Assembly: GCA_027382625.1 (NCBI GenBank)
Contig: JAJKFJ010022783.1
Location: 1-64,000 of the forward strand
From: Tetmemena sp. SeJ-2015
Lineage: Eukaryota; Ciliophora; Spirotrichea; Sporadotrichida; Oxytrichidae
Direction of reading: 5' to 3'
DNA: 64,000 bases
The notes under the pieces are model-generated. The model saw only the letters and a list, made by a program, of their open reading frames with translations. It ran no database searches and was not told the DNA's origin. Both the position numbers and the translations under genes were made by a program. How positions within the stretch are numbered: position 1 is the first letter of the stretch; the number at the start of each line of letters is the position of its first letter. Shown here one piece after another: positions 30,433 to 56,005 of this stretch.

Positions 30433-30509
30433 TTTGAAATTTATTAACCCTTTAGAATTTAAAAAATAAACACTAAGCAAAATTGGCTGTTTTAAATGAT
30501 TCTAATCAA

Positions 30510-33199
30510 TCAGTATTTATACGAAGTTTACGCATTTTTAGCTTCAATCGCAAATTTATCAAACATTTAGTTTTGGCCTGTTTAGATTCTCTAAGTCTAA
30601 GGTGTGAAAGACTTGTCTCTTTTTTCATTATCAATATTGCTCTAACTAAAATGATAACTGTCAGAGCAAGTATAAGATTATCCCCCATAGCTCTCACTAT
30701 CAGCCTCTTCTACTTTATCTAACTCTGGAAACTTGGCCATCCTTTCAATTTGTTTATCATTGTAATTCAAAGCAGTCTTTCCTCCAAAATATCCTAATCT
30801 TTCTGGCTGATTCCCTCTGACCTTACCTCCTTCAGTGTTCTTAAGTTATCCTTAAATTTTATCACTTCCAGTTTGAGAATTTTAGCCTTTAGCAAATGGC
30901 ACTTTGAAATTTTTGACAAGCAGTGGTATGGTGCTACCATCCGATTTATTTTCTTATTTAAATTCTTTCAAAAGCCTTTTCATTACTTCATTTACCTCTC
31001 GAAGAGACTCTCTTATCATGAATCTGCCAATCTGGATTTGATTAGCATGAAGTTAGTCAGCTGCTTCCCTTCTGCTTATAGCTTTTGCAGTATAAACTTC
31101 TTAGTTACCTATCTATTGTCTTTTATGTATCTTTTCTCTCTTTAGGCCCTCCACACCCTTTGAATCACTCTTACAGCTTGATCAAGTTTCTAGCTGAATT
31201 TTTCTTTCTACTGCGTGCTCTTCTTATACTATTCAAAAGCCTTTAAGCGTTTGTAGTAACCTCTTCTTGAGAAATAATTCTATAATGAGCTCTAAACAGA
31301 AAATAAATGCTAATGAGCTTGGATTGAGCCTTCTTATCTTTTTAACTTTGCACTTTGAAGTTCTAAATGACAAAAAGTAGCATTTGAACTAAAGATATCA
31401 AAGACTATTGGTACTCTTGAACTTTAGAGAAATGCTAAGTCAGAAGATTTTAAAGGGTGGGTAGAGTTGGAATGCCTCCTCTTCCATTTGGAATTTAAAA
31501 TAGAGGCTAAGATTATTCTATCTTCTCTTTTATCAAATGCTCTATCTAAAGCAGCTACACTTCGCTTAAGCTTGAGCTCACCTCAATTAAGCCTCTTTGC
31601 CTTTGATGATCAGGAGTATAGAACCGATTAGAGCTTATATTTTCTTAATCCTTTGAGGATTTTAAAGGCGGAAGCAGCCCCTTAGATCTTCCACTTGAAG
31701 TAGTTTTCAAATTTTTTGGAGTTGAGAAAAATTACTAGGTATCTACTGGCTTGATTAGTTGATTCTTTAGCACATATTTATCCAAGTAAGTCATCGTAGT
31801 ATCTGCTTGGCATAATTATGAAGTTTGGAGGAGCATAGTTTGTCCAAGGAGAGTTTAGTCCTTAAATCCACTTAATTCCAACGGATTGAATAAATTCTGT
31901 GAGATGCTCTAACAATCAGATTCTATTTCAATCACAAGAAGAATGTGCTCTAAAGTTTACTTAACTTCATTCTCTATGTCTTATTTGCCTCTTGTCTTAA
32001 CTTTTGACTTTTAATCTAAGTTCGAAATCACTTGGGTGGAAAAATTAATGCTCGCCTCTCTCTTTTACTTAAGCTACAGTTCTAGTATTCTCAATCTCTC
32101 TTAGAGTTTCTTAAACTCGATCTATGAGATAGTGTAATCCATAATATAAGAGCTGAGACTAGTGACGACATCATCATATTGAAGTTTTAGTGCTTGTAAC
32201 TAACTTATGAAGTCGCTTGAATTTGATCTCTCTTCTATAAACTAAACATTTTATTTGAAAAATGTTTTCAATCTTAAGAATGAAGAGTTTAAAATAAGTT
32301 AGTACAAGAAATTTTACTTGCTGCTTTAAAGTATTAGTCTAAGCTTCATAGTTAGTCAAGGCCTTTAGTAATTAATCTTAATCTTCTGTTATATCTTTTA
32401 TTTGATTTTCATATTAGGATGATTGCTTAATGAGGTTATCTTTTTCTTCTTAGAATTGTAAACTTCTTAATTGAAACTGCTCTTTGAGTTCCCTTATTTG
32501 ATTTCTATAAACTCGGCTTTAGTCTTGCTGTTGATTTATAGTCGCTATCATATCTTCAGTCTCGGATTAATAATTTTTGAGAAGTTGCTTTTATTCCTAT
32601 TGATCAGATTCAACTTTATTCTTCTCTTCTGTTAATGTTTGGAGCTTGCTCACCAAAGTAGCTTATTATTGTTATAAGGAAACGATTTACTGGTCTTTAT
32701 TTTGGATTGAGCAAAGTACAAAAATTAATAATTTATTTTGTAAAGTAACTCTTCAATTTATTATTCCAAGTGTATTTCCTTCTCTTGACTATGCTCTAAT
32801 TGTCTCTTTATTTCTTCTCTCTGAAACTCTAAATCTTAAGCTCTTTGACTTTGCTTGAGAAGGCTTTCATTCTCTGTATTTATATGATTTTGCATGTCAT
32901 TTAATTTATGTTGTAGTTCACTTATCTTAGTTTAATTGAGCAAGATCTTCTCTTCTTTAGACTTGATTATCTCAGCTTGCTGCTTGAGTTTGCTATCCAG
33001 ATCAGCTAAGAGTTAATTTTACTCTTGCTTGCTCTCATTTTAAGCTAATTCCATATTACTCAAAAGCTCTTCCTTTTCCTTTTGCAGTAAAGCAATTGCT
33101 TGGTTTCTCTGTAGCTCAAACGACTTAAAGCATTCATCTCTTATAGTTTGCATGTCAGCTGATTACTGCAGCTATCTCTTCAAATCCTCAATCTCACTA
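30510..33199 (-). CDS. Kinesin-like protein, 3' part of scrambled gene (coiled-coil tail)
   Basis: Begins at the second copy of pointer TAGTGAGATT (33190-33199) in the frame that continues the motor half (join KDSEIEDLKRQLQQ). Long heptad-like, Gln/Glu/Lys-rich coiled coil: QKEKEELLSNMELAQNES, KLKQQAEIIKSKEEKI, QDLEFQREEIKRQLEHSQ. Frame changes near 32,640-32,720 and 32,240-32,330 mark further unresolved IESs. It ends with a non-coiled C-terminus (FGGKTALNYNDKQIERMAKF, then GQNQMFDKFAIEAKNAQ) and TGA at 30510. That stop is only 77 bp from the ATG of the motor half. No start codon lies near 33.2 kb, which supports its being a tail rather than a separate gene. Confidence 0.75.
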
Positions 33200-33396
33200 A
33201 ACACATATCAATTAACTCACGAAACTATATTAAATACGTCGGAATAGCATTAAATGACGTGTATAAAAGTCAAATGTAAATCTTGGTCCTTATTTCAGTT
33301 GAATCTATTAAATTCCAACCTAATTTCGAACCAAAGTAAGATCATCAATATAAGTAAAAGGCTAGTAGAATTATTTACAACTAACTAAATTATAAA

Positions 33397-35439
33397 ATGG
33401 GCCAGTGCGTCTCAAATACCAATAAACCTAAACATACCAAGGAAGGTCAAACTAAAGGCCAAGACAAGTTCAAACCTGAAAAGAAAAAAATTGAGCAATA
33501 GGTTGATAGCTAAGGAAACGTTCTATCCTAAGGGTATCAGCAACTTGGAGAAGAGCAAGTCACAGAGAAAAATTAGACGACTTAAATGCGTAAAGTCCAG
33601 AGCACGAATCCTTATAATGATGATCAATCTCCTGCTGCGTCACCTTTCAGAAAAGCTGAAGAGTAAGATAAATTATTCAAATAATTGCTTGTGCCTTAGG
33701 AGAGAAGGTAAAAGTGTCAGTGATTTCAATTAGAACAAAGGCAATCTATCATCTAGAGGTCAAATGTCAAGGCAATCTCAGTATTAGGGACTCGTGCCTA
33801 AAGGTTTCTTGAACAGCTATTCAACTTTAATTCGAATGATATGTTTTATGTTCCAATATCAGGTTTATTGTAAGCTAAATTAAAATTTAAGTAGATCGAA
33901 TTGACTTTCTTCAATAGTAAAGACGAGCTCAGAGCTAGAAGGAAAAAAATCTCTGCACCAAAGGCTAATCAATCAGAGAAAGAATCTTCCCCTTTTGCCA
34001 GAAATGTAAAAGGCAGTGCTAATAGATGCTTGCATAAACGGGGATTTAAAGACAGTGAAAGATCTTGTAGATAAGTATCAATTTGATGCCAAATAAGTAG
34101 CTGGAAAGATGGATCAGGTTCAAGTTGGATATTTTTTATTATAGTAAATATAAAATGGAAACCGAACCATATAGTCCGAGAGTTTAAACTTGATTCACTT
34201 AACAGTTTATTACAATCAATTTGAAATCTTGCGCTATCTCTGTGAAAACATTCCAGAACTAGATCTGGTCTAAGCTGGCAAGATTCCTTCTAGCTCAGGA
34301 CTTGCAAACCAATCAGAGATTTCTCTTTCAGCTTCCATGGATGAAGATTTCAGAAATAATTAAGCACAGAGGGGTAATGATTACATTCGCTAAAGGAATG
34401 AAAGTAAAATCCTCATCAGAGAGTTGCAGGAGCCCTCTAGGGAGAATCATGCTGAGCTCTACGGCAAGTACTTGTAATCTGACAGAGAAGAAATTATTGA
34501 AGTCTACTCAAGTTTTGTTTTCATACTTTAATCACAAACTTAAAGTAGAATTTAAGAGACCAGTCAAGTAAAGAATAAGAAACTTGACTTTGATATTCTC
34601 AATGATAGACTTCTTCCACCTGAGAAACTAGTTAATATAAAAAATTAGAACAGTGTGCGAAGTCTGATACTCTTCTGGGCTATTGACAGACTAGACTATT
34701 CTTTGCTATCCTACTTGTGGACTTTTGATCATTTTGGAGAGACAAACTGGGGCATGAAGAACCTGGAGTTCATGCTGATTCTTGCCAATGATTTGAGAGA
34801 TCCTTAGATCTTTGATATCTTGCTTGAACCTAAACCTATTGCAAAGGCTTTAAAGAGCTTGAGTTTTGTAGAAACTATGGATTTCCTTGAGGATCATGTA
34901 GTGAAGAGTGGCTTTGTGAGTGAGGAGTAGAAGTTGCGGCTGATGTACTCACAAGAGATGTCTTCTTACTCTTTCATAGGAGCTTTCATTCACTACTCAA
35001 TAGTGGCTGAGGAACTAGAGTATAATAACAAATAGAATGAGCAATAGAAAATCAGAGACAACCAAGCTTCTTCTCTATTATAGTATGTGTTATATTTAAG
35101 ATTTCTCCACCTTCTCGTGCATAGAAAGGACCAGAGCACTTGAGTTCCACAGAATGGGATAGACAAGTGGATGAATGCGAAGAAGACATAGAGATAGAGG
35201 AATTGCTAGATCTCTATCACAAGCTTTCTGAGGAAGACATATAGCGCATTATTTACTTTCATTATTTAAATACTTTAATGATAATTTTTTTATAGATTGT
35301 GTCCAGTTAAGAGATCATGGATAAGATTAGAGAGCTTGGAGAAAATTTTAAGGATTATGGGCGGGCTGTTGCCAAGGAATATAAGGCAGTCATCAATCAA
35401 ATAATTGCCTTCATATAAGGCTATTCTGAGAGTAAATGA
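33397..35439 (+). CDS. Hypothetical protein with putative N-myristoylation start
   Basis: ATG 33397 gives MGQCVSNTNKPKH, with Gly2 and a nearby Ser/Cys as in N-myristoylated or palmitoylated proteins. A Gln-rich region follows. Around 33,720-34,000 the frame changes repeatedly and IESs are likely. From ~34,010 a long frame is open: VLIDACINGDLKTVKDLVDK and NLIHLTVYYNQFEILRYLCE resemble degenerate ankyrin repeats. Later come YSLLSYLWTFDHFG, NWGMKNLEFMLILANDL and DIEIEELLDLYHKLSEED. A one-base shift near 35128 and an IES at 35248 precede the end (IRELGENFKDYGRAVAKEYK, TGA 35437-35439). Membrane-anchored scaffold is one guess; function is unknown. Confidence 0.6.
35248..35295. other. IES, pointer ATT
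   Basis: 48 bp AT-rich insert; pointer copies at 35248 and 35296. Removal joins SEEDIQRI to VSSQEIMDKIREL in frame. The pointer is short, so moderate confidence. Confidence 0.6.
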
Positions 35440-35729
35440 AGAATTTTGACTGATACATCTAAGTATAAAAAAATCAAGCAAATAAAAAAGTTGTAATATT
35501 ACAAATTTTCAAGACTTACAGTGTTCAAAGTATCCACTCCTATAAATGAAATGGAAGGAATAGAGAAGCATTAATTTAAATAGAGATATAATTATCACAA
35601 CCGCACTGTGAGATGCTTCAATGCGATAGTAATGACGTATTGTCTGCATTTATTTATATTGAACGTGATACCCTCATTGCTATTTCTCATCCTTGGAGCT
35701 TTATTTCTAAGTCTGCACTTGTCTCAACT

Positions 35730-36607
35730 TCAGTGCTTTGGTTGTTGGCTTTTCCGTTCCTACCTGCTCCTCTGGCTATTAAAGGCCTCTCCTTCTTATT
35801 TATTTACATCTTCAGCTAGAGTGTTTGCTGCGTTTTTAGCATCTTCTTCATCCTTGGTATTTCTGTCTCTGAGTTCCTCAAGGTACTCTCTAACAGTCTC
35901 CTTCAGTGGGTAAGGTCTGTCCCCCGAGTATTCTCACTAAGTCGGGCAAAGTTATGGATTCCTTACTCAGCAACTCCTCAGCAAGCCTATATTAGAAAAT
36001 TGAGTGAAGATAAAGTAAAGTTACTGATGAATGAGCTCTCGCTTTGACTCTAGCAAGTTGCTTTGTCTTGTCATAGCATTCCATCACGATTTTGCGCATT
36101 TCATCATCTATGACTTCGTTGGTTCCCTCTGAGTAAGGCTTCATCTGCTGCTCTTGTGAGTGGTAGCCAACTAGGCCGATCTTATCATTCATTCCGTAGA
36201 CAGTGACCATACCACCTACCATCTGAGTTACTTTCTTGATGTCGTCTGAGGCGCCTGTGGTGATCTTGTTGAAGAATATCTCCTCAGCTATGCGTCCACC
36301 CAAGCTGGTGCAGACCATATCGTAAATGGCTTCCTTGGAGTACAAAGAAATTTCCTCAGGTAGATACTGAGCAAATCCTAATGATCCCTTTGAGCGAGGA
36401 ATGAAATATCATTATAGCATGAAGTATATGAATGATGGTAACCTTGAGAAGTGGGTTAGCGTGCTCGAGGAACCAGCCAGCAACTGCATGACCAGCTTCG
36501 TGGTAGGCGATAACCTTCTGCTCGCTCTTACTCATAACAGTCTTCTTCTCCAGACCTCCAATAACTCTCTCGATAGCCTTGTTCAAACTCCTTAATACCA
36601 ACTGAGT
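35730..36607 (-). CDS. m-AAA/FtsH metalloprotease, 3' half of scrambled gene
   Basis: Carries the peptidase domain of a mitochondrial m-AAA protease (FtsH/AFG3L2/Yta12 family). Begins at pointer AATACCAACTGAGT (plus-strand reading, 36594-36607), then [12 protein letters not shown], the zinc-binding [67 protein letters not shown] and [14 protein letters not shown], ending with a charged tail at TGA 35730. One IES (pointer GAATGA) is resolved; an unresolved insert lies near 35,985-36,025. Extra bases in the GG near 36575 and the C5 run at 35921-35925 shift frame by +1. The AAA domain is absent here and lies inverted at 37.9-39.9 kb. Confidence 0.92.
36399..36429. other. IES in FtsH 3' half, pointer GAATGA
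   Basis: 31 bp; pointer copies at 36399 and 36430. Removal restores [17 protein letters not shown], a conserved FtsH stretch. Confidence 0.85.
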
Positions 36608-36675
36608 AAGTTTAGATTAAATGAATTAGGAAAAATTGAAAATGTTAGAAGTTTAAAATTAATTACTAGCTGCGT

Positions 36676-37683
36676 TCAATTATTTTTAGATTTGGTTCTC
36701 CCTCTTTGGCCTTATCGACAAATCCAGATTTAGAGAACATCACTGATGAACCTAGTGAGGAACTTCCTGTGGAAGTCACTCCTAACTGTATCGTTGACAA
36801 ATGCCTTCTTAAGCTTGGGCTCTGTTCTAGCCTAATTCTTGAAAATAGTTTCCTCATACCACTTCTTTCTTGAGGGAATAGGCACTTGCCATCTCCTCCT
36901 TTTCCTCCTAGTTTAGTAAAGGGTTACCTCTCAGCACCTCTTCCAACTGTCTCTTCTTCAACTCCTCCACCTTCTACATTTCCTTCTTTTCCTCTGTTCC
37001 TCCTCCCTCTCTCGCTTTATCTTTTGCATACTTCTCTCATCAATTCCAACTTATCCTCATCATCATCTGAATCATCATCATCAGAGTCTACCATCAGAGT
37101 CTGAGTTCTGAATCGCTATCTCTGTTATTCTTGGACTTTTATTTCTTCTCCTCTCCATCACTATCTCCCTCGCTGTTCATCCTCTGAGGAGGAGCTTTCA
37201 TTAAATTAGCATCAGCATCCTGAGGAAAAGGAGTTTGCAATTTGGGCCTCACACCAGCCGAAGCTCCACTCTCGTTGAGTCTGAGTCGCTTGACCGCTAT
37301 TGGTTCTTTGAAAGCCTTGCCATCTCTCTTCAACTCCTTCTTCCTCCTCCTTCTCTTCCTTGCTCTTAAGTAAATTCTGAGAAACGGTGGAAGGCTTTAA
37401 GTTAAAAAGGAGAAGAAGTATTATTAGCTTTGATAGCACTTTTGGGAAGTGAGCCTCCTTGCTTTTGAAGCTAGATCATCTACTCCTGGAAAAGCAGCTG
37501 CTGTCTGAAATCAATCTCCTTCTACTCTTGGACATTACCCTGTCCATCATGACGAGTCTTCAGTTTAAGATGAGCGGGCATGTCCTTAGCTGAGTACTGG
37601 CGGGAAGGCTTAACTAAAATGTTGCCTCCCTGTTCTGAACCACCTTTAGCTGAGTTCCAAGTAGGTCTGTGAGCTGTAGTCAT
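36676..37683 (-). CDS. CWC15: Spliceosome factor CWC15
   Basis: CWC15 (AD002) is a component of the Prp19-associated spliceosome complex in the nucleus. Start ATG 37683 gives MTTAHRPTWNSAKGGSEQGG and SRQYSAKDMPAHLKLK, the diagnostic N-terminus. A low-complexity acidic middle (runs of Asp/Ser near 37,050-37,100) follows, then the C-terminal signature: RGNPLLNQ, YEETIFKNQARTEPKLKK, AFVNDTVRSDFHRKFL. TGA at 36676-36678 follows a short extra tail. Frame breaks occur in the middle (a near-duplicate CATCAGAGTCT spaced 13 bp, near 37,080) and near 36,865 (one extra base in an AAA run). The gene lies wholly between the two halves of the scrambled FtsH gene. Confidence 0.85.
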
Positions 37684-37877
37684 TACGATCGATCGATTGA
37701 GTAATTATAATTAACTTCCTTTCCTCTTTATAATATCTCTGAATAATTAAACAAAAGTGAAAGATTTTGACAGAATCGAGAAAGCTGAATCAACACTCGT
37801 GATAAGTCTATGGTTATTAAAATAATATGGTCGACTGAGTTTATAAAATTTGATTAAATTAAATCACAGCAGCAAAC
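37684..37877. promoter_or_regulatory. Divergent intergenic region between CWC15 and FtsH 5' half
   Basis: 194 bp between two divergent ATGs. It must hold the 5' ends of two macronuclear chromosomes or a shared promoter region. No specific motif was recognised beyond the palindromic GATCGATCGA near 37,688. Confidence 0.4.
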
Positions 37878-39921
<2,044 letters not shown>

Positions 39922-40209
39922 TTGCTCCTTATTACTTATGCAACACATATTTTTGGATTTATGAAAAGAGTTTTAAGGAAATCACTAATACAAATAGTTG
40001 GATATTGTGGCATAATTATATGGCCTGCTTTTGATAGCTTCTTCAATATTTTCTTTTCTAGTGTCCCTTAGTTTTATGATATTTTAATGTTGTTAAATTT
40101 GATAAGAATATTATTGTGCATTTATGTCTTGATATAGGTAATTAATTGAAGAGTTGGTGATAAGACTCTAATTATATTGAAAATAAATTAAATTCCTCAA
40201 TCGGGTAAA
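39922..40209. other. Intergenic germline DNA
   Basis: AT-rich, between the end of the FtsH 5' half and the probable start of the kinase gene. Nothing recognised. It is expected to be eliminated or to hold chromosome-end regions. Confidence 0.5.
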
Positions 40210-42667
40210 ATGAATCAGAGCTCACTGCTCACACCCACTCATAAGAGGATTAACACCAAACTAAATTTGTCATTCACTCCTCGGACTTAAAATAATATTC
40301 TTAAAAACTATTTTTAAGACACACTGTAAATCAACCACTAAATAAAAGCAGCCAGACTTCAGAAGCCACCCACTTCAAACTCTAGCTACAAGTCAGACTA
40401 TCAGCAGAAGCAGGACTAACACCCAATATCTTATTTCACTATAATATATCGAGCGAGAGCCACACACCGATCCTGAGCTAGGAATCTTAACAACACCAGA
40501 TCCAACCGTCTAGTTTAATTTATTGCCTTCAATTTAGTAAAGCTATAAAAAGCATCCATTCACAATCAAAGATCAAATTTGTATCATTGTATAATTGTTA
40601 AGGGGTAATAATTTTGATCAGTTAAATAAACGGTAAACTTAAGATTAGCTAAGCACCCTCATATTAAAGCTCTGCTAGCCAGACACCACTGTAACTCAAG
40701 AGTGTTAATTAGTCACCAATGCCGGATCAGAGGGATCTCAAACATGCTAATTAAACACTTACTTCCTCCAGTTCTCAATATTAATCCTCTTATTTTGTTA
40801 TTATTGACAATTTAAGAATGTATTGCTGCAATAAATTCAAAACGGCACAATTTTAAATGATAGAGTAAAAAACATGTAGAAGTTCGACTGGCAATAAGTC
40901 AAGGGAATAGCGGCAGCTGCTTCATCTCAAGGAAAGCAGACCAAAGCACTTTCGAATACACTGACTCAACAGTTCACAAATTTCTTTTAAAAAGTTATTA
41001 TACCTTTTAATTAGAGAGGAAGTTAAAGTGAGAGCAGCTAACTCATGGAAGATAGGGGAGACACTTGTGAGGACATCACCAAAATCCTCGAAAATCAAAA
41101 TCTTCACAAAATATGCACTCATACATTTTAATATCTCGCTGATGCCACTTAGAGAGAGATCTTACAACAAAGCATTACAAATGCTAGTTCTCCCAATAAA
41201 TATATTGTGTTTCCAAGTTTTCTTACTAAATAAACTTCTTCGAAGCAGTAAAAACTCTTCTAAATAAAATTCTAGCGCTAAGAAACAACATATCTTATAA
41301 CAATAATCTAAAAGCAGAGCCTAGCATGGATTCGTTCAAGTTCTATCCCGGGAATCTTCACTTTAAAAACGGGGCAAGATAAGAAGGGTGAGTATTTTCT
41401 TTGGTGCGAATAGAGAATTCTTGCAAGTGATTGAATGGTTTGAGAATGAATGCAACACTTCAGGTTGGCTATTAAGTGAATTCATTCGAAGAACTGAAAG
41501 TGATCCTTTTCTCAATTTGCATTTACTTTTAAGAATTCATTACTTTTTGATTTAAGTTCTCAATGAGAGCTTAAATGAGGCAAAATAAAATACTAGGAGG
41601 AAAGGAAACAAATAAATTCCTACCTCTCCTCTATCACCTCTCTCTCCCTCATATTAAACCAGAAAATCAACTTTTCAATGTTCCTGTCAAAACAGCAGCA
41701 ATAATAATAACCAGTCTCAAACAACAGAAACATTAAAGACTTCAAAGCTTTGAGTTTATTTTTATTGATTTTCATCATTATTCACATAAGCTCTAGCGGA
41801 TACCTTAACTTGTAAGATCGCCTAAGAATTAAATTCAAGGCAAGAAACCTCAAAACCTTATTAAGGGTACAAACAATAACTTCAGCCTAGCACCAAATTA
41901 GTAAAATACTTAGGGAATTTTGCGTGATCAAAAATCGATCATCTATAGTCCCGAGAGAAGGGACAATAGAGATAATAGCAAAACTTCGAAGCTCGGCTTT
42001 TTTTCTCCAACTAATAAGAATAAGAATTAAAAGATACCTTAAGAATTTGAAGGCAGCATAGAACTTCAATGTCTTTGCCAGAAGCATGCTCAGAAATACG
42101 TAACGCTCTCACTCAGATCTTTAAACGGGAAATTCCTCTCATTAAAAGCTTCTTATTATTTTCGTATATTCTTCTCACTAGACTTTCATTTGTCTCTCGC
42201 CGACCAGCCTTTGAAATCCTTGGAGCACGATGAGCAACTGGAAGCAGTATAAATTTTGAAGTAGGATTATTAACTGCTCCAGAAATTAAAAAAGTAAAAT
42301 GCCAAGCAGCCCCTTCAAAGAGAGAAAGACTCCTTCAGAGACTTGGCAGCTGCAGCAGCTTTGAACCCCTAAAGACCTTAAGAACTAGACACAATCGACT
42401 GCTACTTCATAGAAAAATGCATTGCTAATATCTTAGCAAGTTTTTGAGCTCTTCTTATATTGAATTAAATTGGTAAGGGTGGATTTTCGAAAGTTTTCCA
42501 AGTAAGGAAGAAACTGAGCGGGCAGATGTATGCGATGAAGATCTTAAGGAAAGATAAGATAAAACTGGATAATAAAGTTGAGCAGATTATGACAGAGCGA
42601 AGGATCCTGGAACGAGTCAACCACCCATTCATTATAAAGATGCACTCTGCTTTTGTGTCCGTAAGAA
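40210..42667 (+). CDS. AGC-type protein kinase, 5' part of scrambled gene (N-lobe)
   Basis: ATG 40210 (MNQSSLLTPTHKRINTKLNL) opens a long Gln/Ser-rich N-terminal region that changes frame several times (near 40,310, 40,460, 41,440 and 42,230), so several IESs are unresolved. It includes QHQIQPSSL, SLYNCQG and DTCEDITKILENQNLHKI. From 42,470 the kinase N-lobe is clear: IGKGGFSKVFQVRKKLSG (Gly loop), YAMKILRKDKI (catalytic Lys), TERRILERVNHPFIIKMHSA. It ends FVS at a splice donor GTAAGAA (42661-42667), after which no C-lobe follows on this strand. The same GTAAGAA, inverted, starts the intron before the C-lobe at 55805. That the N-terminal region from 40210 belongs to this gene is inference. 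Confidence 0.75.
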
Positions 42668-43001
42668 AACATGCAAAAAGAAATAAGCGCTAATTCTTAT
42701 TTGCAAGTGTGGAATATATGGATTTTCATAGCGAATTGTTAATAAATTAAATCGGTATATTTCTTCAAATGAATTATAATGAACTCAATTGAACTAGTAG
42801 ACGGGAATAAAATATAAATGATACTTGACTTTACTTCTATAAAACATATGGTCACTGATTATGACCTGAACAGTGCCAAGAGCTTTTGGCTTAAGTCGCC
42901 TCAATTATCTTTGTCGTATTAACTTTTATACAATTACAAGTCATCTTAAAATTAATTTGAATTTTTTTAATTACAGGAGTAAATCTTATGATCATAAAGA
43001 C
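42668..43001. other. AT-rich non-coding stretch
   Basis: No supported gene. It follows the kinase N-lobe directly, where the C-lobe would lie if the gene were unscrambled. Confidence 0.5.
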
Positions 43002-44451
43002 TTAATAAATATGATATCCTTAATAGTTTAGGCAATGGAACCAACTTTGCTCGCAAGTTACTATAATGAATAATTAATAAATAAGATAACGAGGGAGTGT
43101 TGCCGATAATGAAATTAGGAAGTAGTTGGTGTTACAAGAGTAGAAGTAGTTGATTCTTTTTTAAAAACTTCTTTACTTACCCTTAAGACTTGCTTATCCA
43201 GCTTGCTTCCACCAGGGCTTTGAAGCGCCTTCTTTAGCATTTAGTTTTTGCTGATAGGAGTTTAACTTAGCAAGTTAAGTTACGACCCGTTGATAGCGTC
43301 TTCCCTCCATTCTTTGTTAATGTACTTTTGCACCTTTTCTTGACATAGCTTACAAAAAAGGCTGCTACAACTTTTTGGATCTTCTCTTGAAATATTTACT
43401 ATGGCAAAATAAAAAGTGAAGTTGGAAATAGTTTGGCCTATAGAATATTGAGATCCTCCAATTAGTGTCGGGAGACAATAAGCCACGTCTTATTCGATAA
43501 AGTTCAAAATCTCATCGGTTTTCATCAATTCACTCGGCAAATCAAGAAAATATTATAAAATTGCTTATTTAAATCAGGTTCTTAAGCATTTCTCGAAGGA
43601 TAAATATCAAAATTTATACATATGAGTATTACGAAGGAGCTTTTAATGCATCTAATTTGATAGGTTCATTGCAAGCTTAGAGTTTGATTTTAATAAGAGA
43701 TTTCTTTGTTAGAGACTTGAAAATATTTTCCTCTAGCTTTTAATCATGTTACTTTAACTTAATACAATAATCTATATTGGGCACTTTTTTAAAGGCGCTG
43801 AGACGTCGAAGTCATCTATCTTTTCCTCTTATTCCTAATGAATTTCTTCATTTTCCTCAGTGATTACGCCGTCACCAAAATGCTAACTTATGTCTTAAAT
43901 GATAACAACTAATTATTTGTATTTAAATGAGCTAATGCATTTCAGAATCTCTCTGTGCTACCTCCAAGTCTCCAAGCTTCACTATCTTCCTTCCAACTAA
44001 TACAATAAGTTTGATACATTTTTTGAACTACCCCACTCTGATTTTATTTTTAATCTTGCTTGTGGAAGCTAGATTTTTAAGTCCTTTTTAATTGTGTACT
44101 TTCTTAAAGTGCAGGATTTGTTTAGGGCTTGCTTTGAGAAGGCGAGACGCTCGAATTTCTCTTTATTAAGTAGCCGAATAAAGTGGGATTTGTACCTTCT
44201 CTGGGAGTAGATATCTCATCTTTTTGGCTTAGAAAAAAAATACTTACATACTTCCTTCCCCTGACTACTTCACATATTTATATTCTGTCTAAAAAAGTAA
44301 ATTTTTTGATAAACTAAGGAGTTGAAAATTGAGAAGGAGAGTTATTATTAATAATCTTAGATTGTTTAGAAGTTGGAGTGATGCCTGAGTAGTAGAGATT
44401 CCTTTGATCTCTCATGCTCATTCTATGTTAGCCATAGTGCGAGAGCTCCAT
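43002..44451 (-). CDS. Hypothetical protein, possible PH-like region
   Basis: ATG 44451 (MELSHYGQHRMSMRDQ) on the minus strand. A probable short intron starting GTAAGTATTT lies near 44,250. Then NPTLFGYLIKRNSSVSPSQS, where GYLIKR resembles the start of a PH domain, and IVLVGRKIVKLGDLEVAQRD. An acidic segment follows near 43,800 (HFGDGVITEENEEIHQEQEE), then FIEQDVAYCLPTLIGGSQYS, FYFAIVNISREDPKSCSSLF and YINKEWREDAINGS. Frame changes mark at least two IESs. TGA at 43002. It lies inside the interval between the two halves of the scrambled kinase. Function unknown; the PH assignment is tentative. Confidence 0.5.
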
Positions 44452-45281
44452 AGTTTTGGATTGTGGAATCCCCTCACTTTTTTCTAACTTTATTTAGAGC
44501 ATTCCAGAGTTTGGAAAAGCTGGTGCGTTATCTTCTATTCTCCATCCAACTTCCTTTAAGAATATACATATGTGTTTTAGAGCAAATTTAATCCTCTTGG
44601 TGCTAATTTTTGTGCTTTTCAGTGTCGCCAGACTGAGTTTGGGTGGTAAGACCCTCAACTTTTAAGCTTTGTGTGTCTTTTTCCTTAATTTACTGGTGAG
44701 AGAAAAGTGACTCTAGTTTATTTAAGTCCCAAGAGTCCTTCAAAGTCGTCTAATGCTTTTGTATTGGCTTTGATTCCCTCTAGTTAGTATATTCTTTTGG
44801 TTTCACTTAGTGATTTTTGGGTTGTAGAGTTGTGTAAATGCCAATCTCATGCCCGTTGGCTAAATGAATATCAATAAAATATGAGAAAGATATTTGGCTT
44901 TGAGATGACTCCTCTCATCCAAGAACTCTTGCAACAAGCTATCTAAATCCATCGAGTACGCTTAAATAAAAGTAATAATTATTCTTTTTTCTTTAAATTA
45001 TAGCATTAAACACTTTAAGATATTTCTCACATTTCAAGAAAATATCATAAAGAAAATTATTAAACCTTGCTTCAAAAAATCATTTCCCATACTTCTAAGT
45101 TTTGTGAATCATTCTTTCATAAGAATTGTATTTTATTCTATTTATTGGAGATTAGCTTAGAATTGCATGAATTATTCAATTTAAATTAGGGAGAGTGTGA
45201 TGATGAAGTTGTGAGTATAAAGATTATAATTACATTACACGAGTGAGCGAGTGATTGCAGGCTTATTTTATCAGTAATCTC
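44452..45281. other. Intergenic germline DNA
   Basis: AT-rich. Holds the 17-bp word ACACGAGTGAGCGAGTG at 45237-45253, also found at 20990-21006, 29 bp before the next start codon. Nothing else recognised. Confidence 0.45.
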
Positions 45282-48200
45282 ATGGGGAATTCATCAGTTT
45301 GCATTAAGCAATAAATCAAATCTACCAACCCTTCTAACAATCCAAGCACCTTACTAAGTGGCATATCGGGAACAGATGCACTCGCGCAGAGCGGCGGAGG
45401 TCACTCTCGCCAGAGAAGCAGACGCATTACCAAAGATGTCATGTAAGTTAAACACCTCCAGAGCCAAATATTTATTACTCTGAGCGACAGGGATGGAGAA
45501 CCAAATTATTCTTATATTTCTGAGAGTCATCAGTCTAAATTTAACTCTATATGAATCTGATTCACCTCACCTTCAGATTTATACCTCAATTTCATTGCTC
45601 TAATTATTATTCATTCAAAGATATTGCAATATAGAGAATAATAATTAAATTAGAAGATTATTCTTCTGAGATAATTTTATTATTAATTTTTTTTATAAGA
45701 AAGCGATAAATTGTACTCAATAAAGATTTTCGACATAAATTTATGTATGAATATAAGACAAAAAGTTAAATTGCTCTCTTTTGTAATATAAATAAAAGGT
45801 TCTTACTTCCATTTATCTGAGGAGAAAATCAAAAAATGATAAATTATACAATAGAAGAGTTTTACAAATTAAAATGCCTCCCAAAAACCTTCTATAAAAT
45901 AACTATCTACGATAAGGGAGGACGCAGTTTTTAACATTTTATTAGAGAGTCATAGATGAGCAAGGAGTTCCTGAATAATAGCACGCTAAGAAGAAGTCAA
46001 AACGATAATTTCAATCACTTTAATATCATATATACTTTTCATATTTCTCCAATGAGCTAGGGAATGTGTCTGGAGATTAGAGCATTTTGCAAAACACTTC
46101 AAACATTACAAAACACGACAGCACGTCAAAGAAAAACCAAAGAGACTCTTCAACAAATTTTACTATTGCTTGAATATATTTAATGAGTTCTTCATTTGCA
46201 TTTTCATTTATTGGAGCAATAACTATCCTGATGACCAGACGAATATGTACCATATACAATTTTGAGATTTAATTAATTTATAAATGATACCCTAAGCAGA
46301 GTTGCTCATAACACTCCAACAGAAGTCAGTTAACCCACTCTCGAAATCCAAGTGGAGGGGCTAGTAACAATAGCAAACAAGTTCCGGCCTCATATAAGCC
46401 AAGCAGTGGAAACGCAATGATGCAAATGATTATGGACCATGGGAGCAGCTCCATGAAAAATAATGCGCTTGAGAAACGTTTGATAGCGACAGCAGATTTT
46501 GGACACTACAATAATCTCACGCAGGACAGAAAATAAGAAAGCTACGTCAGCAATAGCCGCTTCATACCCACGGGTCAAAGTCTAAACCTCAATAACTTCG
46601 AGGAGTCTCTTTTAGTTGGTGATAACAATCTCGCTCAAGCTCTTGAATATAAGTCGGTATTTGTTATTTGAGTTTATTGAAGACCATAATTAGGATAACC
46701 ATTATAGCTATCTGCCCACTTCTTACCTTGGAGGAAACCTGAATGACGATACAGACTCGCTTACTCAATCCTACAACCAAAAGGTGAAGGAGGACACAAA
46801 CTTCTTTTTCTTCTTTTCTTAGCCAAGTAAAGAGACTTATATGATGAAGATGACGATGTGCATCAGAGCTTCAAAGAAAAGAGACGAAACGATTCAGATG
46901 CTTATAATTTTAAATCAAACATAATCACTCTATTGAAGCAATAATTTAAGTCATCGCTAGTCTTATGCGGTCATGGTTAACGGGCAGGCATAAAAAATAT
47001 CGTACTCTACTTAGCATAAGAAGTCCTACGAATTAGAGCTTTTCGAGTCTCAGGAATTTGTTCCCAAAGATTACCATGACAGTGATCAAGAAAGTGCTCA
47101 TGCTTCAGTCTCAATCCAATATGATCAAAATGCATTAAATCTGCTGAATGGAGCAGCATTATTTTTTTTAATTTATGTATAGTGAAAGCAAATACTGAAA
47201 TACTTAAAGTTCAAAAGATTATACAAAAGATCAACTCTATAGGAGGAGTCAGGAAACTATTCTACATTTATCATTAGATCATTAATATAATTGAAGCTTA
47301 AATTTTCAAGCAGCATCGCAGAGACTTGCTTAATAAGAAGAAAAGAGAGTTTTGTGAGGAGTATCAATAGCTCTGCAATGATTTTATCGAAAAGTTAGAG
47401 GTACAGAGAGAAAGGAACCTAGATTATTTGCTAAGAAGAATCAGTGAGAGCTCTTCCCAAGCCTTTCCAAGGCAGATTTTCACTCAACTGTCGGCCAAAG
47501 TAGACAAGGATTATCATGCTATGTCATAGAATAATTATAGCAGCTTAAAATGAGTATTCTGCTATGATCGGTTTGAGTAGAAGAGTAGAGATTCCTCTTG
47601 GCCTTGAAGTTGAAAGAGCAAAAGAATTAAAGTTAGCTCTCTAAGAAAGAGTGATGGAGCTATGGAACGTTCACCAAGAGCAGATGAGTAGAATCTTTGA
47701 CATGGAACGTCTTCTCTCTATTCTTAATACTTCATTTTTTCATCCTTATCATTCTTAAATTTTTCTTGAATGCTTCGCGGAGGATGAGCTGTTCTTTGAG
47801 AATGAAATAGAAATAGAGCAAATCGAGAAACTGATAAGCACAGAGCACTTTTAGCAACTATCGACTATAAGCCAGCACTAATCCAACAATACTGCCAACT
47901 AGAATCATATTATCATCATTAGCTTATATCATATGAGCACGAGTGGTCTTTTCTAAAATGAGGAATCATTGAGGAGCACTGAGTCTTAGCAAAACCTCGG
48001 TTAAGAGCTTGACCAAGCGATGAGGACTTCCTCCTCTGGGTAACCATTTTAAATTAATATAAATCATTATAAATTGAATGCTTTATGTAACCAGACTACT
48101 CTTAGGTAATTTAAGCATTTACCAATTAATTTAAGATATAGGTTTAGCAACTTCTGGAACAACTGAATTCCCCTGCCAAGATGAAAAATACCTTCTAGCG

Positions 48201-48522
48201 GATGTCGATCAAGAACGCAGTAAGGATGAGCATCTTCACCATCGCAGAGGAGGAAGAAGATGATGCAATAAATTCACTTATTAAGGAGTAGTAAATGTAT
48301 TGTATGCTCAAAATGAGTATTGATGATCAATAGAAAGAAGGAGGAGGAATATAGAATAATAAAACGGAGAAACTCTTCCAAGCTAAGGTTGAAGACTTTA
48401 TGTCTCTCATAAATTATAGCCTATTAAATTAGATATACAACAACAACACTCATAGATAAATATTGTGGATTTCATTCTTTCTTTTTAACTTGGTGATTAT
48501 GTATTCATAGAACTTGATTTGA
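45282..48522 (+). CDS. Hypothetical protein with putative N-myristoylation start
   Basis: ATG 45282 gives MGNSSVCIKQQIKS, a good N-myristoylation context. A Ser/Gly/Arg-rich segment (LAQSGGGHSRQRSRRITKD) ends near 45,437. Coding resumes at ~46,285 (SRVAHNTPTEV), which implies an IES of about 850 bp, possibly with pointer GAT. Downstream patches include KRLIATADFGHYNNLTQD, NSRFIPTGQSLNLNNFEE, YDEDDDVHQSFKEKRRND, FKQHRRDLLNKKKREFCEEY, FIEKLEVQRERNLDYLLRRI and LEVERAKELKLALQERVMEL, separated by frame changes. It ends at TGA 48520-48522. The helical middle could be a coiled-coil or SPX-like region, but no signature is firm. Lies between the two halves of the scrambled kinase. Confidence 0.55.
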
Positions 48523-49077
48523 AAGTAAAGTCAAACCACAGCAGCAGCCTTTGAAAGGAAGCTGGGATTTTAAAATTAAAGCCTTAAGTAATTATAGATA
48601 GCTAAGTAGGTCTAAGAGTGATTAAATAATTCCCCTATTTATATATTTAAGAAGGAAGAGGAAAGTGAGGTTAAAAAAGAAGAGATTCTATTTGGCCTTG
48701 TTCTCATATAATGTAAATTTCAATCTGAGTATTAACTAATAGCTTATTTGGTATTGCTAAAAAAACTCATTAGAGAAATTTGGAGAAATGTAAAAAAGAG
48801 GATTTTTTTTTATCAATATTGGCTTATCTTTTTAAATAATTTGGCAATAAGGTGTAAATTTTAGCTCATCTATTCCAAAATAAGAGTGAGGAAAAAGTTC
48901 AAAACTTATATTTTTAAAGTTGAATTTGAGTATAAGAATTTTCATAAATTACAGGCTTCAAAACTCAATACAGATAAACTGCTTTTAGATTACCCTACTT
49001 TGAAGTCTTACTAATGTATATATTCCATACTAGAAAATTGTTAATATCTAAAAGAGAAGGTTTTATTATCTCAACCT
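48523..49077. other. AT-rich intergenic stretch
   Basis: Between two converging genes. Nothing recognised; several A/T runs. Confidence 0.45.
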
Positions 49078-52000
49078 TCAGGATCTCGCATTTTTGGAAG
49101 TGACTTGCTTAGATTGGCGACCTGGCGAGGTGTTTACTTATATCTCAACTCTGAGTTGATTATATAATTGGTCTGCTAACTTTTATTTGAAGTCACTTTG
49201 GCTTTTCCTTGTTGGCCCTGCACCAGATTCGACTTCTTTGATCTCTATAAATCTACCCATGTCACTTTCTAGTTTCTTCTCCATTTATTGCTATTGTTGA
49301 ATTTCTTAAATCTGTTACTACAACAAGTCCACTCTTACTGATTGGATAGGTAGCTGAATGCTTCGAGGAGAGTAAATCGAGTTGGAGGATTAGTCATTCT
49401 TATACACATCAAGTTTTTCTATAGCTTCTCCTGCGTTTGTCTGATTGAAGTGATCTGCTTAGTTATAGTTTTATTGATATATGTTTTGTAGAGCTGATGC
49501 GTGGAACTGCAGATTTTAGTAATGCAAGGAGCCAGGGTTTATTTTAGACTAGGGGGTATGATTATACTATGAGTGAGTAGGTATGTTATGATAGTGCTAA
49601 TGAATGTTATTCAATTAAGAAATACCCAGTCCTCTACTTCATAATTTAAAATTGAGTAATCACTCAATGAAAAGACAAGATTTATTTCCTATTGAAATTC
49701 TATGAATGAATTTTATCTACTTAGCATTGGGCTTTAACTTCTATCATTCGCTTTAACAACATCTATATAAAGATATACAAATAAGTATTGCGCCTTATCT
49801 ACTGAAGAGTTTTTAGCACTTATTTGGTAAAGAGATGCAGTGGATTTGTGCAATATCTTGCTTTGGATCTCTCTCACTCGATCATTGATAAGCTTCTGCA
49901 CTAGCTAGTTTCTTGGAGAATTACCGACGCTCTTCTCAACAGATTAGTTATAGACTGAGCCACTGCTACTCGGATTCTTCTAAGTTTCGTTTAAGCTCTC
50001 GTCATTAAACTAAATCTTAGAAATATTAGGAGAAATAAGTGATTAGACTTGAGAGATTTGGCATTTGCATTTCTCTAGATCTTCTGTGAGATTTACTAAG
50101 ATGAGGACGAGGGTGTTGCACCAAGATCTTTCTAATGCTTATTAGGAACCTGCCGCTTAGGAATTCGCTTACTAGCCTGAAAAGTGTTAGTGGAGGTGTG
50201 AGGGGTCCCGCTCGATATGGGCTTTAAGTTATTTTGTGATCTGTTAACACTTCCCTAGTTTGACCCAGCGTTACTTGTATTTAACTATAATTTAGAGATA
50301 TGTATCACCGCCGTTTGAATACTGGCTTGTACTTTACTCCTACTTGTGATTTCCAAAATCCTTGCCAGTTTAAATCATCTACCTCTTAGATCTCTGGCTG
50401 TTCTTGTTAGACCCATTTAAAATGAGAAAAAAAAAGATTTGAGGATGCATTAGAATTCTTCCTGTTTTCAAATGCATTTCTTTGGCTTGTTTTCCCGTCA
50501 AGTGAGCCTTGATTGCTACTTGAGCTGATTTGCCTTCCACCGAAACCTAAACCAAGGCTAGTCACGATACCTGTCTAATTGCTTCCGAGAGCGGTATAAT
50601 TTCCAATTGAGGAGACTCCCTGTAATTTAGAAGCTGAACGACGTTGCTATTCGAATAAATTGGGAGATGCCGCTCCTTTAGTCTACTATTCATAAAAATG
50701 CTTAAATTGCTTTAACTACTTCCCAGAAGGTCTCTAATACATAGAAGGGGGCTTTCCTGAAACTATAGGAGGCTTCGGAGTACTAGATGCATTCACCGCC
50801 TCAGACTTCATAATTTAAGTCAGGTCTGTCTAGGGGTGCACTTATCGTGTACTCATGCTTTCTTATTTGATGTAGGTAGCTGGAGTAATTTATGAGATAA
50901 CCACGTTGATCAAATTACAAAATGTCAATATAAATATAATGATCTGTTTCTATTCAGCCTTAGAAAAATTTCCATTCTTTGTCTTGACGTTTCTTAGAAT
51001 TGATACACCTACTAACTCAGCATTTGATAAATCTGGAGCAACTTAATCTTGACCTTTGTGAGAATGGACGTCTGACATCAACTTTGAATCATTAACTGTA
51101 TCACTCTCTTCTTCTAATCTATGAAGAGGACTTTGATGCAAATTTGTAGAAGAGTTCATCTATTGATAGTCTAAATAAAGTTTATGCACATGTTAAAAGA
51201 CATCTTTTATTAATTAGTCCATCCTAATAGGACTTGAGTCCTCGTATCTGAACTAAGGACTCTCAGCTGACATTTCCTAAATAGATACAGTTTGACTCAG
51301 CTAACTCGAAGTGATCTAGCCTTTTTACTGTCTGTAAACAGCCCTTGCGAAACTGAGACTAATCTGCCATTTAATTCGAGTTCTTATTCCCTAAAATATC
51401 AATATTAAAGTTTATCTCTAGTCTAAATCTTTTAAGCCCAAATTAATCAATAACTCTCAAAATATATTGCTTGACCTCAATAATATACTTAATCTATAAC
51501 GCATAGTTAGTGAGTTGATTCTTAAGAGAGACCTTCTCTTTTTACTCAGTCAGGTTAATCTTCCTTACTTTTGAGGAATTGATGTTGAAAGAGTCATATT
51601 ATGTTTGAGGGCTTGTGGGCTAGTATACCACATTCTAAATCTTTTGCTTTCCTTGGGATCTCTTAGTGTTAGTTTAGGCATCTCCTTGATATCTAAAGTG
51701 TATATTAGATTATGAATATTATTAAAAATGATATTTGAGCATTTGAGTTAAAGGAGAGGAGAAATTCTACCCTGTTTAATTAAGATCTTAAAAAGAGGAC
51801 TCGAGAAGAGGAGATTAAACGCCTGTCAGGTCTATCTGGTAGTCATTTGTCTTCATTTCATCTGTTTTAAACTAAAAAGAATATGAGTTTTCATGATTGA
51901 AGGCGAAATAGTTTGGACATTTCTTTGGTTTATACTCATTGAAGTTTATCTTAATCTATAAGAAATGAAGAATAAGGATATTCATTATAAGTTGGATTGT

Positions 52001-55000
52001 ATATCTTCTAGTTTGAGAAGGATTCATTAGAAGGAAGTTGCATAAAGGCTTTTTCGTTGCTCTAGAGCTTTTTAATTTGAGTATTCTTGCCAAGGGAGAA
52101 ACTGTTCTAGGTGCTCTTCCAATTGAATACCCCACTTGAAAAACTGTTTTTCATTTGCTAAGATTGAACCTTGCTCATCCCTGCTTGGCTATTTGACTAG
52201 CCACTTATAGATAGAAGTATAAAGAAATTTCCATAATCATGACTTATTTATAGAGTCTTAATGAGCCTTGTGCTAGATGTGATTAAGAGCCTAGCTAGTG
52301 AAACTTTGAGTGGAGCCTGCATTATGCGAATTCTTGGATTGGTTCCTTGGGTGATACTTTGACTTATTGATTGGCGTGTTTGACACACTTTGCTTCCTCT
52401 TTCTTTCGCTAATTACATTCCCGAATACTTGCTTTAAAATACTAATCTAAAATTTGAAATCCTAAATACCTCATTATACTTTCTCTTCAAAATCACGTTG
52501 TAGACATTTGTAAAAGTTAAAAAATATAAGAGAGAGTATGCTAATAAATTCATTTGGAGCTTCTTTCTAAATTCTTGCCAGACTTTCTCCAGCAGTATGT
52601 CTGTGAACAGTGGCTCGACTAGTCATAGAAGAAAGAGAACTCTTTTTCTCTTAAATGTTGGAAGAAGGAATCTTTTCGTCAAACTAATAAAAATTCACTA
52701 TGCTAAAATTCATATTTTAAATAAGTAGGGCTTCTCATGCCACTACTTGCCTGCTGATTCTTGAACATTATTTGGGATTAGACTACATAGCTAGTTTGTT
52801 TTGAGGAGCCTCTATATCCCGAATAGACATTAAACATGTTCTCCTGTTGCTCTTAGTCTCTGCTGAATTAATTCTATCTAGCTTTTAGACTTGGCGATAC
52901 CACCCCTGAAGAGAGCTGAGTTTGCTTTTCCTGCTCTATCTCTGTCATATAAGCTGACTACTGGTGCAAATTATGATTAATTGATGCGAGCTAAGATGGG
53001 TTATAGACAGGATTATGAGAGAATTTCTTCTTCGGAAGTCCGCTCTTAGATTTCGAATTCTCTTCCTCGACTAGAACTTGAGAGGCTGAGACTTGGTATC
53101 TTGAGTTGGTTGGAGAGCTGATTATATTCTAGTCTTTCTTCAAGTTCGGTACAACATTTTAACCTCTTTACACTACTAGATCTCTCCCGTAGGTTAAAGG
53201 ACTCATCTCTCTCGACTTTGAAAGACTCTCTTGTCTCTAGTTGTTAGCTCCCTTCTGCATGTACGCAAACTCAAAAAAGGTATTTGAGAAAGAGATAGGG
53301 CTTATTCAATTTGAAACTAGTTGTAGAACTATTTGATATTCTCCTCATATCTTTTCTTCATTTGCTTGGTGGGAGTCATTGAGATGCATCTATTAGACAT
53401 AGCTTTATGGTTATGGCCTTTACTCTTTTACTTATTGAAGTAGGGCACTCTGTCTGCGCCTGAGCCATTTACTCCTAATGTCCTTATTGCTTGCTTGAGG
53501 GGAAGATACTTCACTCCCTACTCATTCTTCTTATTGAAAGGGACTTAGGGGCTCATGCATTTCTCATCAAACTCTTATTCTTTTAGAAGAAAATTGGATG
53601 GTATGTATTTATCAAAGATTGAAGAGTCGTAAGCATGCTCTGCCTGTGGTTTAAGGTTTCCCTCATCTAATTTTGTATTGAAGTAGTTAATCACTTGATC
53701 CTCAGTTGGCATGCTTTCATTAAAGCTTAGATATAAAAGTATTCGTATAAGTCTCCACAGTTTTTACTGCTCTGCTTGTTTGATGACATTCATCAAACAT
53801 TTAATATGATGATGACTCTATCACAACTTGATACTTATTGTCAGTTCTATCAGGCGTTCGTTTGCTCTCTAAACTAGGACTGTAGAACTTTCTTTCTTCA
53901 GAAACAGCTTCATCCTCTTGACTGAGTCCATGCTCGTCCAAGTCTTGCAACTCTTCTTCGTCCTGCTCAGTTCTTTAATCCCTAACTTAAGGCTGCCCCG
54001 ACCCAAGTGGATTCCTAAAGTTTGACCTTATCATCTCAACTTTACTAAGATAAATATACACTCACTTTATTATACTTTATAGTTAGAGTATTAGCTTTGA
54101 TCTCTGCTTGTGTTTGGCGATCCATTCAGGTTTTGAGACTCGACGCTTATTTGTTGCATGTTAAGAGAAAGAGATTCCTGCTCATTCTTACTGCTGTGTT
54201 CGTTATAGTTCGAGTCTCCACTCTGAATTGCTTGCTTGACTGTCGATCGCTTGACAAGGTTGACTTTAGAGTTTTCTTGTGGAGGAATGCCAATTTATAT
54301 GAATGTAGGGGAGTAGTTCTCACTTCCTTCATCCTGCTCACTTTATAAGTCCTCACATTCAATTATATCGTTCTCTGTGTCCGGACTATTTAGCAGGATC
54401 TTTTGCTTCGCATATTCTAAAGCAGCAAAGTTGTCTTAAAATAGAAAAATACGGAATGTAACTTGTGAAATCTTGTTCAGTGTGCTTGCTGTTAAGTAAC
54501 TCCTTTTGAGTGAGATCAGATTGTGAGATTACCTGTCCAAGTTTGTTGATATTCTGAAGAGACGGACTGATGGCTAATAGCTAAGGATGCAGTTACGAAT
54601 TTTGCTGCTTTAACATTTGAGGAGGTTGTGGAACTTGCAATTCCTAAAGTTTGGTTATGGAGTTATCTTGATACTCTTCTAATAAGAATAGGAAGTTTAA
54701 TTTTGAAAACTTTATGGTACTAAGTTTTGACTGTTGGTGGGCATCAATAACTCAGACTTGGATCTGAACAGTTTTAAGGACCCTTGAGCTGGCATAGTCA
54801 CGCAGCTCGCAGTTTTTTCATCTCTATGCACTTCAAATTCCACAATCTGCTCTTCGCTTTCACTCATAATTAGGAGACTCTCTTTCATTTACTGCATCTC
54901 AACAACCACAGGCTGCTCAAATTATTCCTAAGTTAAATCGGATTCATTCAAAGTTAGTCTTGGAGTTTGGTTTATGTACTCTGGGTCAAAGTTTACTATC

Positions 55001-55805
55001 CTTAGTTTAAAAGGAATATATCGAATGCTTATTTGAATGTTAGCATATTGCCAGTGATTCCTTATTAAGAGAGGAGATAGTTCTATGGACAGGGTATTTT
55101 CTTCTTCATAAGCAAATGATATGAAATTACATTAAGGGTTTAAATTTAGCAAAGTCCAGTCTATTCCCTCGCAGAACTCACTCTGCTTGATTTCTTCTAC
55201 TCCATATCTGCAGCCAAGTCTCCTTGCAGGATCTTTGGTTAGTAGCCCCTTCAGAAGTATAATGCTTTCTCTAGATAGGTAACTTGGGAAAGTAATCTCC
55301 TTGTGAACTATATCAGAGTACATTTGCTCTCGCTCACTCGAGTAGAGGGGAGGGAGTCCTGTAAGCATCTCGTACAAGAGAGCACCCAGAGAGTAGAAAT
55401 CTACCATTCATAAAATGAGAAAATATTTATGACGTGCTTTATTCTTGTGTGGTAGTCCTAAGACAACATCTCAGGGGACATGTATTCAGGAGAGCCGCAA
55501 AAGGAAGTGGCTCTCGACCTTTAGCTGAAGTTATCTTTAGAGAGTCCGAAGTCAGTAATCCGAACGTTGCCCTCGTGATCTAGTAGAATATTTTCCGGTT
55601 TAAGATCTCGGTACATGATGTTATTCTGGTGTAAGTACTCAATTCCAAGAATTATTTGGCAGAAGTAAAATTTGGCTACGCTCTCACTGAATCTTCTGCA
55701 CTTCTGCAAAAGGAAGAACAACTCTCCTCCTGGACAAAACTCGAGTACTAAATGCAGATAGTGTTTCTATAGATGTGTTAGCAAAGTTTGTAATTCAATT
55801 CTTAC
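49078..55805 (-). CDS. AGC-type protein kinase, 3' part of scrambled gene (C-lobe and long tail)
   Basis: Starts at pointer GTAAGAA (55799-55805), which is also the donor of a 39-nt intron ending in TATAG at 55767. Then [36 protein letters not shown] (catalytic loop, YRD as usual in AGC kinases), [24 protein letters not shown] (activation loop) and [36 protein letters not shown], then an AGC-tail-like segment ([20 protein letters not shown]). A Gln/Ser/Asn-rich region follows, with many frame changes where IESs lie. One resolved IES (54039) ties the patches above and below 54.05 kb together. Patches such as [15 protein letters not shown] (about 53.5 kb) continue in the same style to TGA 49078. 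That all of it is one gene is inference below ~53.8 kb. Confidence 0.7.
54039..54073. other. IES in kinase tail, pointer ACTTTA
   Basis: 35 bp; pointer copies at 54039 and 54074. Removal joins QYSNYK to [15 protein letters not shown] in frame. Confidence 0.65.
55406..55440. other. IES in kinase C-lobe, pointer ATTC
   Basis: 35 bp; pointer copies at 55406 and 55441. Removal gives [18 protein letters not shown], restoring the subdomain IX region. Confidence 0.85.
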
Positions 55806-56005
55806 AGACATAAAATGAAAGAGATTGAAATAAATGCATTGAATAATAAATTGAGATAATTAAATTAAAATATTAGCAATCAGTTATCAATAATTCTAGT
55901 TGAATGCAATTTAAGAGCTTCTTGACTTAAAGTAATTTTTCTCTTAATAAATTTCCTCTCTATGATTATAACCTATTAAAACTAGGTACTTCCTTATAAT
56001 TCCTC

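Follow-up and report, generated by a model that had tools for sequence, protein, structure and literature searches.

The window analysed here, bases 1–64,000 of contig C3419 (64,746 bp) in an assembly of 146.2 Mb and 5213 contigs, holds the two halves of one protein kinase domain on opposite strands, about 13 kb apart. The N-lobe half lies on the plus strand, where the frame LNQIGKGGFSKV...MHSAFVS runs to position 42660 and is followed by GTAAGAA at 42661–42667; the C-lobe half, whose frame includes YRDLKPEN and DFGLSK, lies on the minus strand from 55766, with a 39-nt GT...AG stretch ahead of it. Both placements had been proposed in the initial annotation and were recovered, and the kinase frame is open across the conserved motifs once TAA and TAG are read as Gln (code 6). 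The flanks are also covered by three haplotigs, on the N side by C1002 (33080–45450) and C4143 (26049–45450) and on the C side by C4692 (51508–64004). Over 26049–45450 the window is a mosaic of haplotypes, 97.6% and 97.1% identical to its two haplotigs, which are 94.4% identical to each other. Within the AT-rich first third, 11444–12776 and 15392–16741 are direct stretches of ~1.35 kb with 67% identity. The features of the locus are as follows:

42456..42667, plus strand: end of an MDS that encodes the kinase N-lobe, with Gly loop and AMK Lys; the exon ends at 42660, the pointer copy is included, and the left edge is the preferred one of several solutions
42656..42667, plus strand: candidate pointer copy 1, TGTCCGTAAGAA in the window and TGTCTGTAAGAA in haplotype C4143; donor GT at 42661–42662
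42668..55798, no strand: intervening 13.1 kb, ORF-rich, presumed to be removed or used elsewhere
54940..55409, minus strand: remaining C-lobe and beginning of the AGC C-tail (FDPEY-type); possible further in-frame insert
55410..55444, minus strand: ordinary IES-like insert, 35 nt, pointer GAAT; its removal, read against paralogs, restores the normal kinase sequence
55445..55766, minus strand: C-lobe coding sequence as far as the next insert
55767..55805, minus strand: predicted GT-AG intron, 39 nt, opening the C-lobe segment; same site as the 28-nt C2626 and 52-nt C2894 introns
55799..55810, minus strand: second copy of the candidate pointer, TGTCTGTAAGAA, in the opposite orientation to the first

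A tblastn search with the joined kinase (E up to 1) found exactly two matches in the window, the two halves, so neither a plus-strand C-lobe nor a minus-strand N-lobe, the kinds of match that had been named as evidence against the reading, was seen there. A profile search of the open reading frames placed a Pfam Pkinase match (1.9e-08) at 54034–55407. The two unrelated genes that the initial annotation had put between the halves were not borne out, as none of nine chosen ORFs (42.8–53.4 kb) reaches the Pfam cut-off, two of them having weak matches below it. At the left edge of the N-lobe segment, a very short frame-breaking insert precedes the Gly loop (42429–42459), 2 nt longer than in C4143, and several excisions mend the frame. 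A reading of this edge in which FEL is placed before the N-lobe by an 8-nt drop was given up; it is present in the query proteins of the N-lobe genome search, the protein search and the tree described below. Excision of 27 nt (42429–42455, pointer TAT; 25 nt in C4143) looked better and was preferred because it gives one identical protein in both haplotypes, as do eight other products, making it one of nine that do so.

When joined, the halves form a 169-residue stretch that scores 192.5 bits against Pfam Pkinase (the halves alone score 55.2 and 123.5), profile positions 5–67 coming from the N side and 71–169 from the C side. The best PDB chain for the joined protein is ribosomal S6 kinase alpha-6 (E 2e-50), and all three PDB alignments examined, all to ribosomal S6 kinases, cross the junction without a gap. 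The best 60 of the 2651 matching PDB sequences are RSK, AKT, SGK, PKA and PKC chains. The protein is thus closest to AGC kinases, has the Lys, YRD and DFG motifs intact and is continuous when joined, which agrees with the initial annotation of an AGC kinase in two parts. Among the best 120 proteins listed in the protein search (identity ≤59%) there is no orthologue of this gene. That these 120 also include no somatic product, and that the C-lobe of a paralogous copy on C3129 has frame-breaking differences, could mean that the N-lobe or the C-lobe is a decaying relic outside any working gene; the haplotypes, however, differ at four positions of the N-lobe over 42460–42660, all of them synonymous, and the catalytic motifs named above are intact, and we see very little chance of such decay.

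The 39-nt stretch ahead of the C-lobe is predicted from sequence to be a GT-AG intron, as initially annotated; it is in phase 0 and its position is shared with paralogs. Short introns (28–52 nt) occupy the same site in C2626 and C2894, where the lobes are contiguous, and C244 and C3163 have one there too, in the C segment.

According to the established spirotrich scheme, macronuclear development links segments at their pointers and retains one of the two pointer copies (accessible text of PMC9797194). The initial annotation had taken GTAAGAA, found once directly and once inverted at the two boundaries, for such a pointer. The positions are right, but the heptamer is not informative on its own, with 13 copies in the window against 16.3 expected, and as evidence by itself it was rejected. 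The haplotypes extend the match. Near the N-lobe the window tracks C1002, with one mismatch in 41000–42660, and C4692 is identical to the window over 55350–55950. At 42660, in the last Ser codon, C4143 has T for the window's C and so reads TGTCTGTAAGAA, which agrees with the C side at all 12 positions. The repeat is therefore 12 nt long in the C4143 haplotype and 7 nt in the window/C1002 haplotype, with the C side known from one haplotype only. The 12 nt are five exon and seven intron bases spanning the splice donor; segment n closes and segment n+1 opens with a matching short repeat, as a pointer requires. With at most one mismatch, TGTCTGTAAGAA occurs twice in the window, exactly at both boundaries, where 0.67 occurrences are expected; at least two occurred in 17 of 100 shuffles. 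A common string of at least 12 nt between the C4143 N side (65 nt) and random 110-mers from the window was found in 6 of 1500 draws. On the minus strand at ~55841–55829, upstream of the second pointer copy, there are 13 nt, TTTCAATCTCTTT, that equal the 3' end of the C3163 N-lobe and are either a relic of a paralogous segment or a chance match.

Across the whole assembly the exact C4A4 word, taken as three units, has 21 overlapping matches confined to 3 contigs, so the assembly does not consist of telomere-capped somatic nanochromosomes. Reading of TAR as Gln, scrambled genes and IES-like inserts are features pointing toward a stichotrich (hypotrich) ciliate germline, and this code together with few C4A4-capped contigs is compatible with a germline assembly of a stichotrich-type ciliate. 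For the window itself, the open code-6 frame, the scarcity of C4A4 caps and the 35-nt GAAT insert point to germline (micronuclear) DNA.

Is the opposite orientation of the halves a property of the genome or of the contig? In C3419 the N-lobe is on the plus strand and the C-lobe on the minus strand, as first annotated, so that segments of one protein occupy both strands as in a scrambled gene, provided that the contig is right, and the ~13 kb inversion is known from this one contig. Both N-side haplotigs stop exactly at 45450, no second contig covers 45450–51354, 51355–51509 has a copy in C2869, and C4692 diverges from the window at 51508 into a repeat present in 38 other contigs (40 matches scored). 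Misassembly between the halves had been named in the initial annotation as a refutation, and the joints at 45450 and 51355–51509 look doubtful; the split of the gene is unaffected by them and its orientation depends on them. These joints are what one would expect if a single gene had its halves far apart, as a long split or at two loci, and the contig were misjoined within 45450–51509. The common end at 45450, however, would also fit the merging of two haplotype branches, the break at 51508 would fit a TA insertion in one haplotype, and the kinases on C4007 and C3129 show, each on its own contig and over ~1 kb, an inversion at this site independently of the window joints. We therefore regard a misjoined contig as rather unlikely.

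Some further observations concern these joints. The 155 bp of 51355–51509 are identical to C2869:39891–40045 and have unrelated flanks on both sides, and the right end of this copy coincides, at a TA, with the departure of C4692 from the window. The C4692 tail (L016, C4692:12609–12733) is a repeat often found at contig starts; it looks like an insertion at TA, window position 51508, in one haplotype.

We consider it likely, judging from the sequences, that the locus is a scrambled AGC-type kinase gene in the germline with one inverted segment, joined at a 12-nt pointer across the donor. We infer the joining, the splicing and the order of events as follows. Segment n would end with the N-lobe, and segment n+1, on the opposite strand, would start with the 39-nt intron and the C-lobe. 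During formation of the somatic nucleus the segments would be joined with inversion at the 12-nt pointer, and the retained pointer copy would contribute five bases to the end of the exon and seven to the beginning of the intron; splicing would then remove the 39-nt intron from the transcript, which would encode a continuous kinase. Among paralogs, whose segments lie elsewhere, the junction would drift about the conserved intron.

Genome searches gave 156 matches with the joined kinase and 130 with the N-lobe alone. Each search scored its best 150 candidates and the paralogs were picked by eye; the list of split kinases is therefore not exhaustive. Strings shared by the N and C sides of several kinases split at this intron are listed here with positions numbered from the donor G (0), so that the exon ends at −1; the windows for these longest-common-string tests were placed around exon ends already seen.

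Window (C4143 haplotype): TGTCTGTAAGAA, offsets −5 to +6, joined intron 39 nt
C4057 with C244: TTTTCAATCAGTAA, 14 nt, offsets −10 to +3, joined intron 31 nt
C2414: TCTATCTTTCTTA, 13 nt, offsets +7 to +19, joined intron 29 nt
C3163: TTTCAATC, 8 nt, offsets −9 to −2, joined intron 33 nt
C4007: AAGTTTT, 7 nt, offsets +13 to +19, intron 105 nt

The candidate pointer is wholly exonic in C3163, across the donor in C4057 with C244, and within the intron in C2414; the N side of C3163 has no GT, so its donor would come from the C segment. The pointer strings are kept in the N-side near-copies C4748, C3272 and C1597. The layouts also differ. In C4007 and its near-copy C3129 the lobes are on opposite strands, with exon ends 1.0 kb apart in C4007. 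C2414 and C3163 have both lobes on one strand with the C-lobe first and the N-lobe 6.6 and 9.3 kb further downstream, respectively, and the halves are on separate contigs where the N-lobe is on C4057 (and C3272) and the C-lobe on C244, no N-lobe on C244 being among the matches listed in the N-lobe search (best 150 candidates scored). In C3021 the lobes are 33 kb apart on the same strand, and a convincing pointer was not found between them. Contiguous lobes with an intron at the same place are present in C2626 (28 nt) and C2894 (52 nt), and C2872 and several others have continuous lobes without an intron. In C3837 (L066, L074) the lobes are in order and 378 bp apart (45007 to 45386) at the same intron site, a gap that could be a long intron or an intron plus an IES. 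The frame-breaking differences in the C3129 C-lobe (L029) reflect either a decaying copy or sequence errors.

Common strings of at least 12 nt arose in none of 1500 random draws for C2414 and in none of 1500 for C4057/C244. The 8 nt of C3163 (305 of 1500 draws) and the 7 nt of C4007 (601 of 1500) are both within chance; the C3163 C side was 25 nt long in this test, and the string comparison was repeated with 110 nt. Because family members conserve the exon end and the donor, homology accounts for part of the pointer matching. The total of 54 nt was reached by 3 of 120 pairings, the assumed one among them. The C4057 N side has 14 nt in common with the C244 C side and 13 nt with that of C3163; its pairing with C244 is based on the 14 nt and on exclusion, and a swap of partners with C3163 gives the same total, 22 nt.

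The conserved exon end and donor could by themselves account for the shared TGTCTGTAAGAA if the window halves came from two different genes. TCT/GTAAG recurs at paralog exon ends, 13 nt were common to 2 of 20 non-cognate N/C pairs, and orphan halves exist elsewhere (C4057, C244). We nonetheless hold an origin from two genes to be improbable: the window exon ends in GTG TCT where CAA TCT is usual, and the C side bears the same departure (TGTCT), which it has no coding reason to retain. Among the matches scored, moreover, there is no other N-lobe like that of the window, the next best having 55% identity.

A metagenomic protein of 300 residues (P0003) is continuous through the split site, is similar to both halves of C2414 and C3163, and groups with them at 99/99 in the tree; it supports, independently of the pointer strings, the N/C pairing deduced from sequence in these two kinases. 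The 25-row tree places the five split kinases with C3202, the C3021 C-lobe and P0003 at a support of 80/79 (drawn open), and C3202, on a long branch, is contiguous and has no intron. A single origin of the split across the group is not shown by this tree, on which the split label needs four changes and the starred branches force at least two.

The initial annotation had also proposed that the pointer doubles as a 5' splice site. The overlap stands, with 12 nt rather than 7 in the C4143 haplotype, but a special device it probably is not: candidate pointers of paralogs lie before, across or behind the donor, so the overlap looks contingent. In the C segments an entire intron is still present next to the DNA junction; the two thus occur together, and no IES was found in place of the intron at this site, as intron–IES conversion would have it. 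Small errors would be better tolerated at a junction within the intron than at one across the donor; that introns buffer junction errors is speculation. With near-interchangeable pointers at one conserved donor, scattered N- and C-lobe cassettes might be put together during development into several kinases from the same parts, with inexact joins taken up by the intron, in a DNA-level domain shuffling guarded by splicing; we think this idea quite improbable.

As a protein, the window kinase is like the AGC kinases in PDB (S6K/RSK, AKT and PKA chains) in sequence, catalytic motifs and FDPEY-type C-tail, and it is unusual only in its germline layout. In that layout it resembles the scrambled genes described for the spirotrichs Oxytricha, Tetmemena and Euplotes woodruffi in the accessible text of PMC9797194, which have disordered or inverted germline segments and junction pointers, longer pointers at scrambled junctions and an association with paralogy. 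It differs from them in that the candidate pointer overlaps a donor site of its own gene, and in that several paralogs are split at one intron with other layouts and pointer offsets. Intron–IES conversion, as presented in the accessible text of PMC9797194 and PMC1805493 (citing Mollenbeck 2006 and Chang 2005), is similar in that introns coincide with rearrangement junctions and short repeats overlap splice sites; there, however, an intron in one species is set against an IES in another, or the conversion is a hypothesis, whereas here an intron and a scrambled junction, not a simple excision, occur together in one gene. The paralogy model of combinatorial segments (Gao 2015 via PMC9797194; Chilodonella, PMC5760741; both as accessible) likewise has large families rich in scrambled members, whose paralogous segments might be exchanged, but in the present family the analysis found near-identical pointers in different paralogs and no alternative product.

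Between-species coincidence of introns and junctions, repeats at splice sites, larger paralog groups of scrambled genes and scrambled kinases have all been described (accessible portions of PMC9797194, PMC1805493, PMC10901763, PMC5760741, PMC5940158 and PMC7858049). In the open-access literature, leaving aside subscription papers and supplements, we found no report of a pointer across the donor of its own gene with paralogs at other offsets. What appears to be new, in that we have seen no report of it, is the within-genome series, a kinase family split repeatedly at one intron. The Chilodonella study discarded segment boundaries resembling GT-YAG intron ends (accessible text of PMC5760741), a rule that would lose junctions like that of the window and so serves as a warning. 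The coincidence of introns with rearrangement junctions in ciliates is an open question studied mainly by comparison of species, as far as the accessible literature goes. The present genome contains, at one and the same intron, a graded series that runs from contiguous lobes to candidate pointers ahead of the donor, over it and within the intron, in differing orders and on differing strands; with it one can test within a single genome whether rearrangement junctions find shelter in introns and in what way pointers drift.
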